The position numbers and the translations under genes are program-made. This document shows, piece after piece, positions 16,091-21,168 of a stretch of 28,184 nucleotides of DNA. Every line of letters starts with the position of its first letter. Within the stretch, counting starts at the first letter, position 1. The notes under the pieces are model-generated. The model searched no databases. It had not been told where the DNA came from and saw only the letters and a list, made by a program, of their open reading frames with translations. Source of the DNA: a virus; IMG/VR virus record IMGVR_UViG_3300020478_000046, positions 1 to 28,184 of that record, one strand, 5' to 3'.

Positions 16091-17272
16091 TTAAGCGTTT
16101 GTTGGATAGTTATCACCAAATGCAGCGTTACCTGTTGAAGCAGGAGCAGCACCAGCGAGTAATTCAACGCAAGCAGCAGGGTTTAGGAAGTCTGCACCCA
16201 TAGCTAGTCTTCCAAGGATTACGTCACCTTGATAAACTACACTAACGTCTCCAGAAGTTACTTGAACCTGTGGTCCGATAGCTTCTACAACACCAGCAGC
16301 TTCTCTTTGGAAGATAAGTCCGCAGCTGTTTTCAAAGTCAGAGTGATTACCATAGTTGTTTTCAAGACCAGTCTGGTTTGATCTAGCATCTTCTAACTCA
16401 GTATCACTACCTACAAATGAACCTACGTTTCCGGGGCTTGTAACACCGGGGTTGGTTGCAGATGCAGAACCGTACTTAGTACCATAGTTTCCGAAGAATG
16501 GGATGTTCATTGACTTGTAGATCTTGATGCCTGCAATCTCAATGATTCCGTTTCCTGTTTGTAATGAGTCACCTTGCTCATCTCTGTTTACAAGACCGTT
16601 AGAACCAACAGCTTGGATTAGTTCGTAGTACTGTCTTGGGTTAAGAACACCAACTCTACCTTCAGTTGAAACTCCCTTCTCGTCTAGTGCAGCGGCAGCA
16701 TCATAGAAGCCGTTGATTAGACAGGTTGAATCATAAGCTGCGGTAGCGTTAGTAACACCAGATCTAGTTAATTGAACCTGTGTTCCACCGGGCTCAACAA
16801 AGCCTGACTTAGTGATTGGTGAAGCAAGACGTGCCCCTTTCGCAATTTGACGGAAGATAAGTCTGTCGTACTTCTCAGCAAGAGCGTATCCAATCTTCTT
16901 GGAAATCTCTCCTCTTAAATCGTAATGAGAAAGTGTCTCATCCAATTCGTAGACAAATGCACTTGAAATTAATAGGTCATCGCAAGTAATTGTCTTTTCA
17001 GCTACTGGAGGTGCTCCATCGGAGTTACCTAGTATGCTGTTACCGGGTGTATGATACTCGGCTTTTGTGCGTCCAGTGTAGATGAACTGAAGTGACTTAC
17101 CATTAGTAAGTGTTCTCTTCATTACAAGGTCTCTAGCGATTGTGTTACGCTGGAAGCCTTTGAACATCTCTCCACTGAACAACTTTAAGTATAACGCTCT
17201 GGCAGATCCAGCAGCGTTCGATTGACCCGGGCGAGTTAGACTCGTTGTTAGGTCACTTGTTTGTTGTGCCAT
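16091..17272 (-). CDS. Major capsid protein, T7 gp10-like
   Basis: A 393-aa HK97-fold capsid protein that forms the icosahedral shell. The N-terminus AARALYLKLFSGE-like segment (SARALYLKLFSGEMFKGF, about residues 22-39) with FQRNTIARDLVMKRTL, the FIYTGRTKAEYHTPGN segment (about 63-78) and the C-terminal GRLAMGADFLNPAACVEL are typical of T7-group capsid proteins. T7 gp10A is 345 aa, so the length is normal for the cyanophage variant. The codons are noticeably richer in G and C than in the fibre genes, as expected for a very highly expressed gene. No T7-style frameshift extension is supported: the stop is followed at once by A/T-rich sequence and a terminator. Confidence 0.96.
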   Translation of the reverse strand: MAQQTSDLTTSLTRPGQSNAAGSARALYLKLFSGEMFKGFQRNTIARDLVMKRTLTNGKSLQFIYTGRTKAEYHTPGNSILGNSDGAPPVAEKTITCDDLLISSAFVYELDETLSHYDLRGEISKKIGYALAEKYDRLIFRQIAKGARLASPITKSGFVEPGGTQVQLTRSGVTNATAAYDSTCLINGFYDAAAALDEKGVSTEGRVGVLNPRQYYELIQAVGSNGLVNRDEQGDSLQTGNGIIEIAGIKIYKSMNIPFFGNYGTKYGSASATNPGVTSPGNVGSFVGSDTELEDARSNQTGLENNYGNHSDFENSCGLIFQREAAGVVEAIGPQVQVTSGDVSVVYQGDVILGRLAMGADFLNPAACVELLAGAAPASTGNAAFGDNYPTNA

Positions 17273-17416
17273 TGATATGGATTATTAAAAAGATTTATAT
17301 TGCTTAGTACTAATTTACTCGAGATTTTTGTGGTCTATCCCACCGTCTAGACGGCTGATGGTATCCGGCGTACCGGGCAAAAGCCAAGTGAAAGAGAGTC
17401 CGACTCTGAGGTGCTC
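17273..17416 (-). promoter_or_regulatory. 144-base non-coding leader of the capsid gene, rich in palindromes
   Basis: No ORF is seen here. The stretch holds an odd palindrome AGAGTC-G-GACTCT (17395-17407), a CCGG/CCGG inverted repeat around CGTA (within 17365-17376), a perfect 12-base palindrome CCGTCTAGACGG (17343-17354) and a perfect 10-base palindrome TTAGTACTAA (17304-17313). The last part before the capsid ATG is A/T-rich. In T7 the strongest late promoter lies just before gene 10, so a promoter is expected here. No sequence matching a promoter I know was found, and the call is by position. Confidence 0.4.
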
Positions 17417-18019
17417 TCATCCTGTTCTTTCAATATTAAAAGAAAAAGTAATTCTATAACCATCATGCTTTTCCTTAGCTTTTGGAACTAAGTGTTGAGC
17501 GTCTGGTGTGAATAATAATAGATCACCTTCTTCAATATTAAAAGCACCTTTAGAATTATTCTGAAAGTAATGATGTTGTGGAGTTAATCCTATATTAGAA
17601 ATATGAGATGAATAAGTCTCATCACGAGATACGAATAAGACTGGGTGATCTTTATCACTTATCTGTAAATAATAGATTCCACATAAAACAACTGGACCGC
17701 CTAAATGATTATGATACTCCTGATACATGTCCCATGTATGTACATTAAACCAAGAGACAAATTGATAATCAAAAGGAGGATAATTAAACTCATCCAACCA
17801 AGAATGTATATGAGGAATCAAATCTCTATGGATAATACCCATATCTGTCTGTCCACTTTCTTGCCATGTATTGCAGAGATCTGCCCAATGAGCTTTTTGA
17901 TTTGGATTATCTTTAAATTGTTCAATAAGTCTAGGAATATAAGTATCTTTATGTGCTTGATAATTCTCTAACTTATGTTTATAAATTACGTTAGGAAATA
18001 GGGTGATTATTTCTGCCAT
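17417..18019 (-). CDS. 2OG-Fe(II) oxygenase, TIGR02466-like
   Basis: A 200-aa oxygenase-like protein of a type common in cyanophages. Visible: FPNVIYKHKLENY at the N-terminus, then EYHNHLGG with H103 and H105 as the likely iron-binding segment, CGIYYLQ (113-119), EEGDLLLFTPDAQHLVP with H176 as the distal iron histidine, and YRITFSFN with R189 as the 2-oxoglutarate-binding arginine. The order of these blocks follows the TIGR02466 family of putative 2OG-Fe(II) oxygenases. The substrate is unknown. It differs clearly from the oxygenase at 25247-25807, so it is not a recent duplicate. It stands alone between two non-coding stretches, after a terminator and before the capsid gene, so it probably has its own promoter, which I could not locate. 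Confidence 0.85.
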   Translation of the reverse strand: MAEIITLFPNVIYKHKLENYQAHKDTYIPRLIEQFKDNPNQKAHWADLCNTWQESGQTDMGIIHRDLIPHIHSWLDEFNYPPFDYQFVSWFNVHTWDMYQEYHNHLGGPVVLCGIYYLQISDKDHPVLFVSRDETYSSHISNIGLTPQHHYFQNNSKGAFNIEEGDLLLFTPDAQHLVPKAKEKHDGYRITFSFNIERTG

Positions 18020-18040
18020 AAAAAAAAGATAATTGATTTG

Positions 18041-18100
18041 GAGAAGAGCTTTGACGTGTCTCTTCTCTCATATGGTATAGAACGTGTGACCATTCTATAC
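18041..18100 (-). other. Two tandem perfect inverted repeats in the leader of the 2OG oxygenase gene
   Basis: Two hairpins follow the terminator. The first pairs GTATAGAA with TTCTATAC (18093-18100 and 18075-18082), with a 10-base loop. The second pairs GAGAAGAG with CTCTTCTC (18060-18067 and 18041-18048), with an 11-base loop. Neither has a T-run directly after it, so they do not look like terminators. They may be RNA processing or stabilising hairpins, protein-binding sites or promoter-associated elements. The oxygenase gene starts about 20 bases further on, after an A/T-rich stretch. I see no gene in 18020-18103. Confidence 0.6.
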
Positions 18101-18103
18101 AAC

Positions 18104-18136
18104 AAAAAAGGACAAGGAGTCCGAAGACCCCTGCCC
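18104..18136 (-). terminator. Rho-independent terminator, UUCG loop
   Basis: On the minus strand GGGCAGGGGTC, a TTCG loop and GACTCCTTGTCC form a long G/C-rich stem (one G-T pair near the loop, another near the base and one bulged T). A run of six T follows (18109-18104). It lies 15 bases after the 17-codon peptide and closes the transcript that carries halogenase, hli, psbA and the peptide. The C(UUCG)G loop is the same as in the terminator behind the capsid gene. Confidence 0.9.
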
Positions 18137-18151
18137 ATAATGAATTAATTT

Positions 18152-18205
18152 TCACTTAACAAATTTTGTGTAAGCAATGCCACGATATACGTAAGTTACT
18201 TGCAT
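18152..18205 (-). CDS. 17-codon peptide with DUF4278-like YRG motif
   Basis: An extremely short ORF, MQVTYVYRGIAYTKFVK followed by TGA. GGAG (18215-18212) lies six bases upstream of the ATG, an excellent ribosome-binding site. The Y-x-YRG-x-x-Y core is the hallmark of DUF4278 peptides in cyanobacteria and cyanophages. It sits directly behind the candidate glutamine-sensing RNA, which is the arrangement after which Downstream-peptide RNAs were named. A second in-frame ATG four codons upstream (18217) would place the GGAG inside the ORF, so the downstream ATG is preferred. The function of these peptides is unknown to me; it is likely produced or withheld according to glutamine level. Confidence 0.65.
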   Translation of the reverse strand: MQVTYVYRGIAYTKFVK

Positions 18206-18219
18206 AGTAATCTCCATAT

Positions 18220-18276
18220 ACCACAACCCCGTTCCATGCTGTGGTGTTCATGCGTCCCGTTAAGGATGAACGGACG
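18220..18276 (-). ncRNA. Downstream-peptide RNA (glutamine riboswitch class), candidate
   Basis: On the minus strand the RNA carries CGTTCATCC (18272-18264), a GGGACGCATGAA stretch (18258-18247) and GGAACGGGG (18235-18227). CGTTC (18272-18268) can pair with GAACG (18234-18230) to close the element, as in the P1 helix of glnA/Downstream-peptide RNAs. A competing hairpin, CGTCCGTT (18276-18269) with AACGGGACG (18261-18253), uses the same CGTT, so the two folds exclude each other. ACCACA (18245-18240) can also pair with TGTGGT (18225-18220) just upstream of a ribosome-binding site. The motif class is known in cyanobacteria and marine phages, binds glutamine, and by definition precedes ORFs for short peptides, as here. 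The match was made from memory of the consensus. Confidence 0.72.
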
Positions 18277-18282
18277 TGCTTG

Positions 18283-18411
18283 CTATTCTCCTGTAAGAGC
18301 TTCCTCTAGTGATTCGTACTCTTTTTCTTCAGTTTTGTTTTCAGGTTTAGCTTCTGGTTCAGGTGAATAGCTAGTAACAAAAGCTTTAAGTTTTGATGAT
18401 TGATGTGCCAT
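18283..18411 (-). CDS. 42-aa acidic peptide downstream of psbA
   Basis: A short ORF read directly: the ATG at 18411 overlaps the psbA TAA (TAATG), and the stop is TAG at 18285-18283. The product starts [20 protein letters not shown] and is then dominated by Glu and Lys, ending ESLEEALTGE. It has no membrane segment or cysteine. Tight coupling to psbA supports translation, but there is no motif to suggest a function. The predicted riboswitch-like RNA begins within about ten bases of its stop, so the ORF separates the psbA unit from that RNA. Confidence 0.6.
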   Translation of the reverse strand: MAHQSSKLKAFVTSYSPEPEAKPENKTEEKEYESLEEALTGE

Positions 18412-19472
18412 TATCCTAATGTGGGTGCTGAGATTGTTTCTCCAGCTAAGTCTAGCGGAAAGTTGTGAGCATTACGCTCGTGCATAACTTCAAAGCCTAG
18501 GTTTTGTCTATTGACTATGTCAGCCCATGTAGGGATAACTTTTCCATTAGCATCAACAACGGACTGGTTAAAGTTGAAACCGTTGAGGTTGAAAGCCATT
18601 GTACAGACTCCCATAGAGGTGAGCCATATGCCAACGACGGGCCAAGAAGCGAGAAAAAAATGTAAACTGCGACTATTATTAAAACTTGCATATTGAAAAA
18701 TAAGTCTACCAAAGTATCCATGTGCAGCTACTATATTATAAGTTTCGTTTTCCTGACCAAACTTATATCCGTAGTTCTGTGAGACCTCCTCCGTAGTCTC
18801 CCGTAGGATTGAGGATGTAACAAGGCTTCCGTGCATAGCAGCAAACAAAGCACCACCAAAAACGCCCGCAACTCCGAGCATATGAAAGGGGTGCATAAGG
18901 ATGTTGTGCTCCGCTTGGAAGACAAACATAAAGTTGAATGTTCCACTAATTCCTAAAGGCATACCATCAGAGAATGATCCCTGTCCAAAAGGGTAGACAA
19001 GAAATACTGCTGCGGCTGCTGACAATGGAGCTGTGTATGCCACAAATATCCACGGTCTCATTCCGAGCCTGTATGAAAGTTCCCATTGTCTACCAGCGTA
19101 TGCCGCTACTCCTATTAAGAAGTGGAAGACAATGAGTTGATACGGTCCGCCGTTATAAAGCCACTCGTCCAAAGTGCCAGCTTCCCAGATCGGGTAAAAG
19201 TGTAATCCGATTGCATTAGAGCTCGGAACCACAGCTCCTGATATTATGTTGTTCCCATATAATAAGGAGCCGGAAACAGGCTCACGTATGCCATCTATAT
19301 CTACAGGCGGTGCTGCGATGAAGGCAAGTATAAAGCAAGTGGTGGCAGTTAATAGACAAGGAATCATTAACACACCGAACCAGCCTACGTATAGGCGATT
19401 CTGTGTGCTAGTGACCCACTCACAAAAACTGTCCCAATTGCTGGTTGGTTTAGTAAGTTGTATGGTTGCCAT
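18411..19472 (-). CDS. psbA: Photosystem II reaction centre protein D1
   Basis: A 353-aa complete D1 protein, the fast-turnover subunit of photosystem II, carried to keep electron transport running during infection. Functional residues are intact (numbered here, one less than plant D1): Y160 (redox TyrZ), D169, E188, H189, the chlorophyll ligand H197, iron/quinone ligands H214 and H271, S263, and the Mn-cluster ligands H331, E332, D341 and the mature carboxyl terminus A343. The C-terminal extension cleaved by CtpA is only [10 protein letters not shown] (10 residues), shorter than usual in picocyanobacteria. No intron is present. The gene lies 4 bases after the secreted protein gene, with no promoter of its own visible, and its stop overlaps the next ATG. 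By eye it is richer in G and C than the neighbouring small genes, consistent with acquisition from a host. Confidence 0.98.
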
Positions 19473-20079: not shown

Positions 20080-21168
20080 TTACTCTACTCCATTCTTCCA
20101 ATTTTCAAAATTCCAATGTTCCCATTGTCCATATTCTTCATCCAATTTTCCATTTGCGACATCGTAAAATCCCTGATCTGGATTAAATGGAAGTGACTTT
20201 GCATACTCCCAGAATGGTGTATCATATTTAGATCCAAATTGATAATGCCAAAGAATAAAATTCTGTATCTTTACCATTTCATTCTTTATATTTTGATTAC
20301 ATATATTAAATGGAATGTTTTTAAATATCCCATCCCAAGCATACCTGCATAGCCTATGATATAAACAGAGTGCTGTCGCTTCAAGTGGTTCGATAAATCC
20401 GTACATGTTTCCTTGCAAGATTGTTCTATCTCCTACAATAAAATTCTTTGCTACATAGCTATTGAAATACAGCTCATCATCTACACTATCTAATTCAAAT
20501 CTATCTAAGAAATCTTTAGAAGCCTCTTCTTTTGTTGTAATTACTTGGTTATATAAGTACCCATAAGATACACTGTCTTGATTGGGAATTACAAACGTCC
20601 ATCCATTAGGTGTAGCAACACTTCTAGTATAAATTAAATCAGGATCTCTGTATCTTTTTTTCGATAACAATACTGAATTAAGTGGATTAATTAATTGTTC
20701 ATAATTATCCAGATTCCTACTATTCCTACCTCGGCAATCAAATATTATAGGTGAATCAATTTCTTTTTCTGGGTTTGTAATAACTTTTTCTGATACTTTA
20801 AACAGGCCAGAAGTCAGAACAACTTCAGATAATTTCTTAGGAACAAAATGTATTCCCATATCATTCCACTTAAATGGGTGAAAGATTTTATCTTGCTTCT
20901 TACCCCAGCCTTCATAAAGTATTCCACTCTTAAAAGTTGCACCTATTGAGTTGTTATACCAATTTATATTTAATGCGTCAGCAATTAATTCAGAGGGAGG
21001 GAGGTTAGTACCTTGACCTACTTTCTCGATAGGATAATGTTTTGGACTATGATATATTTCTATCTCAAATTTATCTAAGTAACCAGACTGTTTAAGATGA
21101 TAGTAATAATGTAATGCAGTTAGACATCCTGCATTACCAGCACCTATGATAGCAATTTTATAAATCAC
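20080..21168 (-). CDS. Flavin-dependent (tryptophan) halogenase-like protein, compact
   Basis: A 362-aa FAD-dependent protein of the tryptophan halogenase family. Seen: the Rossmann dinucleotide motif GAGNAG (9-14), the second flavin segment VGQGTNLP (50-57), and K80 in ATFKSGILYEGW, which aligns with the catalytic lysine of PrnA-type enzymes (GAFK...I.F.NW). Also present are DCRG (144-147) and the IEPLEATALCLYHRL segment (259-273), with E263 where PrnA has its catalytic glutamate. The halogenase signature WxWxIP reads W190-T-F-V-I-P195, so the second Trp is Phe. The family is usually about 500-540 aa, so this version lacks much of the substrate-binding region. It could halogenate an indole-type compound or be a diverged flavin oxygenase. 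It opens the auxiliary cassette between scaffold and capsid. Confidence 0.82.
   Translation of the reverse strand: MIYKIAIIGAGNAGCLTALHYYYHLKQSGYLDKFEIEIYHSPKHYPIEKVGQGTNLPPSELIADALNINWYNNSIGATFKSGILYEGWGKKQDKIFHPFKWNDMGIHFVPKKLSEVVLTSGLFKVSEKVITNPEKEIDSPIIFDCRGRNSRNLDNYEQLINPLNSVLLSKKRYRDPDLIYTRSVATPNGWTFVIPNQDSVSYGYLYNQVITTKEEASKDFLDRFELDSVDDELYFNSYVAKNFIVGDRTILQGNMYGFIEPLEATALCLYHRLCRYAWDGIFKNIPFNICNQNIKNEMVKIQNFILWHYQFGSKYDTPFWEYAKSLPFNPDQGFYDVANGKLDEEYGQWEHWNFENWKNGVE

Follow-up and report, generated by a model that had tools for sequence, protein, structure and literature searches.

What does the short stretch between the psbA and major capsid genes of a marine virus sense, and what does it control? 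In the 28,184-nt DNA analysed here (the window), the original prediction was of a glutamine-sensing RNA ahead of a 17-codon ORF. We put at roughly 0.7 the probability that a phage Glutamine-II riboswitch controls the translation of a one-repeat DUF4278-like peptide in the psbA-to-capsid region.

The identity of the RNA was addressed by searching the whole window against 4227 Rfam families. Glutamine-II (RF01704) was the sole family above its cut-off, with a covariance match at 18275-18220 (minus strand) of 46.4 bits against a gathering cut-off of 33 (E = 1.8e-8) spanning model positions 1-60 of 60, and our own phage model scores the window aptamer at 65.9 bits. This full-length match bears out the predicted Downstream-peptide RNA, a motif since renamed Glutamine-II, and CGTTCATCC, GGGACGCATGAA and GGAACGGGG lie in the claimed order within 18272-18227 (minus strand). 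The glnA RNA that had been named alongside it was rejected, because Glutamine-I (RF01739) gave no match in the window even at E up to 5; only the best of clan-overlapping Rfam matches would be displayed, and no match was flagged as belonging to a clan. Matches to Yfr19 and L20-leader at 18096-18207 were far under their cut-offs and were read as chance. The minus strand reads GTC-CGTTCA-TCCTTAACGGGA-CGCA-TGAACACCACAGCA-TGGAACGGGG-TTGTGGT, then ATAT-GGAG-ATTACT-ATG, and its aptamer features are as follows.

18220-18275, minus strand: Glutamine-II riboswitch aptamer (P1, P2 and pseudoknot), from Rfam RF01704, our own phage model and P1/P2 covariation
18228-18272, minus strand: pseudoknot, CGUUC (18272-18268) with GAACG (18234-18230), from the sequence set against the crystal structure (PMC6698751)
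C18252:G18229 (long-range) and A18237:G18228, minus strand: pseudoknot-adjacent pairs, matched to C19:G41 and A33:G42 (PMC6698751)

The two pseudoknot strands correspond to C1-C5 and G36-G40 of the Prochlorococcus glutamine-II RNA, in whose 2.3 A structure glutamine lies between the C1:G40 pair and the triple G18>G2:C39 and adjoins C19:G41 and A33:G42 (PMC6698751). The pocket bases of that structure, here C18272, G18230, G18253, G18271, C18231, C18252:G18229 and A18237:G18228, are all identical in the window, and the contact bases C1, G18, C39 and G40 are all present. The ORF begins 14 nt after the aptamer and, at 17 codons, is inside the family range of lengths; Downstream-peptide RNAs were described in 2010 before ORFs of 17-100 aa in cyanobacteria and marine metagenomes (PMC2864571). 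Judged by its sequence, the window RNA is a genuine Glutamine-II aptamer and an ordinary member of its family, and we infer that L-glutamine would bind the predicted pseudoknot pocket as in the solved relative.

Covariation was assessed in 88 matches (76 distinct), in which double changes affect 5/5 pairs of P1 and 7/7 pairs of P2, 12 in all. The whole structure holds 172 double-change cells against 44 expected by shuffling, a level that none of 500 shuffles reached, and sliding the partner by a single column makes the score collapse. The bases of the pseudoknot, C19:G41 and A33:G42 are invariant or nearly so in the 76 distinct copies, many being fixed by the search pattern, and since the pseudoknot hardly varies it yields no covariation evidence. 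CGTTC is kept in nearly all capsid-anchored copies, a set collected without the pattern and scored by a model trained on pattern-derived sequences, and is broken there in L290, L310 and L329. Four loci (L290, L310, L329 and L332) have lost this 5' strand, with an ACTTGA-type sequence in its place in three of them, and still encode a YRG peptide; they represent natural aptamer mutants. Such losses in a few copies would fit a captured host element kept by descent and without a regulatory role in the phage, yet the covariation, the near-universal retention within the clade and a phage-specific platform (below) make this reading very improbable. The original prediction had located the switch in mutually exclusive stems that share CGTT. 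The alternative CGTT/AACG stem exists in the window, but it was found in only 2/132 phage loci and is therefore not the switch.

Behind the aptamer lie the two elements of the proposed output, both of them foreseen, including the YRGxxY-type motif.

18212-18215, minus strand: Shine-Dalgarno GGAG, from the sequence
18152-18205, minus strand: 17-codon ORF MQVTYVYRGIAYTKFVK with one YRGxxY repeat, from codon conservation and homologues

Of 132 loci, 126 have a short Y[RK]G ORF behind the RNA, and at most 101 nt of contig is left in the remaining six; selection by Y[RK]G makes this count partly circular, while the second Y, and R over K, were not imposed. That second Y is kept in 91/91 distinct phage sequences. 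Computed over 11 peptide codons, pN/pS comes to 0.51; among some 90 distinct phage sequences, the codons for Y, G and the second Y show synonymous changes and zero replacements. Because the YRGxxY residues are kept while their codons vary, we judge the 17-codon ORF to be a genuine gene. A 21-codon form beginning at an upstream in-frame ATG (MEITMQ...) was rejected in favour of the 17-codon start, since the upstream ATG is out of frame in P-SSP7 and in MedDCM-OCT-S05-C849 (L007).

The same pattern retrieves Prochlorococcus loci that mostly encode 55-58 aa proteins with three YRGxxY-type repeats and a clear DUF4278 match (PF14105; 42.9 bits for a host protein, cut-off 25.3). A 38-aa phage relative stayed under this cut-off at 18.3 bits, and the window peptide gave no match, the query being its 21-aa form as 17 aa is under the minimum query length. 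The expected DUF4278-like product thus holds as regards the motif and fails at the Pfam threshold, for which reason we do not file the phage peptide as DUF4278. From sequence comparison, it is one repeat of the host's three-repeat, glutamine-switch-controlled DUF4278 protein, and it most likely works as a short linear motif that engages whichever partner the host YRGxxY repeats touch. In IF17, an inactivating factor of glutamine synthetase, DUF4278 spans the N-terminal part; a similar inhibitory role has been proposed for Prochlorococcus PMM1846 but is unproven (PMC6316151). Glutamine synthetase control is the first candidate for the peptide's putative target. With the YRGxxY motif of the unexplained DUF4278 isolated in peptides of down to 13 residues, the partner should be easier to find.

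The gene neighbourhood bears on what the module serves.

18411-19472, minus strand: psbA (D1), named under the matches of related phages
18283-18411, minus strand: 42-codon ORF between psbA and the riboswitch, phrog_23119
17417-18019, minus strand: 2OG-Fe(II) oxygenase gene, separating the module from the capsid gene (Pfam PF13759, 39.1 bits; phrog_81)
16091-17272, minus strand: major capsid protein, 88.5% identical to its P-GSP1 homologue

The module had been placed right behind psbA, in a photosynthesis cassette. It is near psbA but not directly behind it, as the 42-codon ORF (18411-18283) intervenes, and the cassette framing does not survive, because it is the major capsid gene that the module accompanies, also where psbA is absent. 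Among the pattern-found loci listed, which include phage records, a T7-like major capsid gene lies within 1.5 kb downstream in 81 of 84 with at least 1.6 kb of downstream sequence, and psbA within 1.5 kb upstream in 52 of 81 with at least 1.5 kb of upstream sequence. In a capsid-anchored set (the best 80 of 582 hits with the capsid protein of the window as query, some contigs being common to the pattern set), the RNA is upstream in 48 of the 52 capsid loci with more than 600 nt of upstream sequence, and psbA is absent in 8 of these 48. In SS120-1 and S-TIP28 the RNA sits between the scaffold and capsid genes, and psbA is not annotated in the stretch. On the strength of the 81/84 and 48/52 loci, with psbA optional, psbA was rejected as the linked gene; going by gene order, the riboswitch-peptide module is part of the capsid neighbourhood. 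Model matches inside the capsid gene were weak (12-19 bits) and were taken as chance.

This linkage, and a second structured RNA between the module and the capsid gene, would also be expected if a real glutamine switch served the capsid operon, with the short ORF region, by being translated or by folding, setting how the transcript is processed or how far readthrough enters the leader and the capsid gene, and with the peptide incidental. However, the residues of the peptide are conserved and loci with a broken aptamer still retain it, the distance from module to capsid gene ranges from about 110 to 890 nt in the capsid-anchored loci, and the oxygenase gene intervenes in the window, so we consider a switch for the capsid operon distinctly unlikely. 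In most other loci, only 230-540 nt separate the module from the capsid gene.

Two further features lie between the peptide and the capsid gene.

17321-17429, minus strand: second structured RNA, conserved and immediately upstream of the capsid gene, from covariation in 139 distinct stretches
17991-18155, minus strand: 54-codon single-membrane-span ORF whose GTG start overlaps the peptide stop

The capsid-leader RNA (17321-17429) has no Rfam match and occurs in more than 100 T7-like cyanophage loci. Its elements, several of which have compensatory changes, are a hairpin (T-arm-like or of the CACCTCAGAGTCGGA type), a GGN...NCC stem that encloses a UACG hairpin, a palindrome (CCGTC-GACGG) and a further hairpin (GUGG/CCAC). 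This RNA is possibly a more novel object than the riboswitch module. A sequence at 18036-18073 (minus strand), GAGAAGAGACACGTCAAAGCTCTTCTC, resembles its first hairpin; the oxygenase gene looks as if it had been inserted with partial duplication of the capsid-leader hairpin. In L028, L088, L105 and L129 the peptide is followed by proteins that look, by eye, similar to the 54-codon product, which suggests that this ORF is a translationally coupled partner of the peptide. A terminator-like hairpin (18132-18115), considered as a possible transcription end after the peptide, sits inside this apparently conserved membrane-peptide ORF. Elsewhere in the window, a 362-codon ORF (20080-21168, minus strand) looks by eye like a flavin-dependent tryptophan-halogenase-type protein.

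Two predicted stems bear on how glutamine binding could reach the ribosome.

18187-18219, minus strand: P3, predicted hairpin in which the ribosome-binding site (18219-18206) is paired to codons 2-7 of the peptide (18200-18187), from folding and compensatory changes
18173-18284, minus strand: P0, predicted long-range stem of 18284-18275 with 18184-18173 (YRGxxY codons), from folding and shuffles

In the predicted folds, the P3 loop holds the AUG, and P3 is closed, with the ribosome site hidden, under both folding settings, that is, with the pseudoknot strands free or not. The pseudoknot, P3 and P0 have no bases in common. The 5' strand of P0 is the 10 nt preceding the aptamer. In the window this strand takes in the stop codon of the 42-codon ORF, and in loci whose psbA gene stops some 12-14 nt short of the aptamer it overlaps the psbA stop region. 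The loci from which P3 and P0 were proposed also served to test them, and 69 gave the P3/P0 set a covariation of 0.243, against 0.142 when shuffled and at most 0.103 when slid. The number of pairs with double changes (10) was no better than in shuffles (9.1), so the covariation case rests on the cells and the score. Ranked by APC-corrected mutual information, P3 pairs in which standard pairing is preserved come 3rd, 16th and 73rd of 4005 column pairs, in among the P2 pairs, and the best P0 pair comes 211th. P0 energy is in the best 5% of flank shuffles in 43/106 phage loci, compared with 2/106 and 1/106 for positional controls, and P0 was not detected in the host copies, where 2/30 loci fell in the best 5%. 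The P0 register differs between lineages. A P0-less group (L013, L031, L065 and L117) has GACGG...CCGTC immediately before the aptamer, a possible local hairpin. We regard P3 as very likely a real, conserved hairpin that hides the ribosome site, and P0 as probable, though more weakly supported than P3.

In the mechanism that we favour, glutamine would bind the pseudoknot and shift the balance between a closed state, in which P0 and P3 hide the ribosome site, and an open state, and the peptide level would follow host glutamine. Possibly the stack of the formed pseudoknot hinders P0 closure, in which case glutamine would weaken P0 and leave P3 alone; P0 could also be kept open by a ribosome that is completing the gene upstream. 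By analogy, more glutamine would most likely mean more peptide, at about 60:40 over the reverse, because host type-2 switches turn on with glutamine (PMC6316151, PMC6698751), as reported for a Prochlorococcus copy (PMC6316151); the preference is no stronger because the phage platform differs from the host's. An OFF switch would differ in sign only: the glutamine-stabilised pseudoknot and P2 would stack on P3 and keep the ribosome site closed. P3 begins right after P2 and is predicted closed with the pseudoknot bases sequestered, and the host leader is without this arrangement, which would suit such a sign, but an ON response is what has been reported for the host type-2 switch, and we hold the OFF sign to be the less likely.

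With the RNA-peptide pair beside the capsid gene in most related viruses, these phages probably sense the host nitrogen state while building particles, and the module offers a direct way to test the reading of host nitrogen status by phages during particle assembly. More tentatively, T7-like cyanophages may have evolved a glutamine-II switch of their own, in which the YRGxxY codons act both as a one-repeat mimic of the host's glutamine-controlled DUF4278 protein and as the strands of P3 and P0 that conceal the ribosome site, with its place beside the capsid gene coupling a late step of infection to host glutamine.

The RNA is widespread. Glutamine-II matches of 48-61 bits lie downstream of psbA in eleven database phage records, among them P-SSP7, P-SSP2, P-SSP3, P-SSP10, P-GSP1, NATL2A-133, 9515-10a and NATL1A-7, and seven more records match at 37-56 bits (S-RIP2, S-TIP37, S-TIP28, S-CBP1, S-CBP4, SS120-1 and MedDCM S45-C4). 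S-SBP1 carries a degenerate aptamer copy, and no Glutamine-II match was found around the capsid gene of S-B28, S-CBP2, Syn5, P60, S-SRP01 or MedDCM S39-C11. The pattern scan of IMG/VR found at least 120 matching stretches. At least 18 named phage genomes thus have the RNA, unannotated where checked: none of the direct-BLAST records, one of which is without any annotation, has an annotated feature over the matched element. Glutamine riboswitches have been mentioned for T4-like cyanophages (PMC9964418, PMC9602691) and for phage Melnitz (PMC9004378); the open-access literature searched, which leaves subscription papers outside its coverage, held no report of one in T7-like cyanophages. A clade-wide glutamine riboswitch in these phages therefore appears unreported, and the record of the model phage P-SSP7 is unannotated over the element. 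The aptamer itself is known; what is new is its linkage to the capsid gene, the peptide of one repeat and the hairpin that embeds the ribosome site in codons.

Among known glutamine RNAs, those of the glnA type differ from the window RNA in fold (a three-way junction) and in gene context, although the glnA RNA of T4-like cyanophages and the switch of phage Melnitz are likewise phage-borne and glutamine-sensing. The Yfr6 RNA and the type-2-switch DUF4278 genes (such as PMM1846) of Prochlorococcus likewise have a Glutamine-II aptamer before a small YRG-motif protein. The closest system is the Glutamine-II RNA (RF01704) of marine picocyanobacteria, which has the same pseudoknot, ligand-pocket bases and P1/P2 architecture and a short YRG-type ORF behind it. 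In contrast to these host RNAs, the phage copies are tied to the capsid gene, their linker is mostly CGCAUGA whereas the common host linker is CGCAGUUCGA, and their 5' flank is predicted to pair with the YRGxxY codons; in the window, the ribosome site comes 4 nt after P2, in a hairpin with the peptide's own codons. The host DUF4278 proteins found here mostly have three repeats in 55-58 aa, whereas almost every phage peptide contains a single repeat, in as few as 13 aa.
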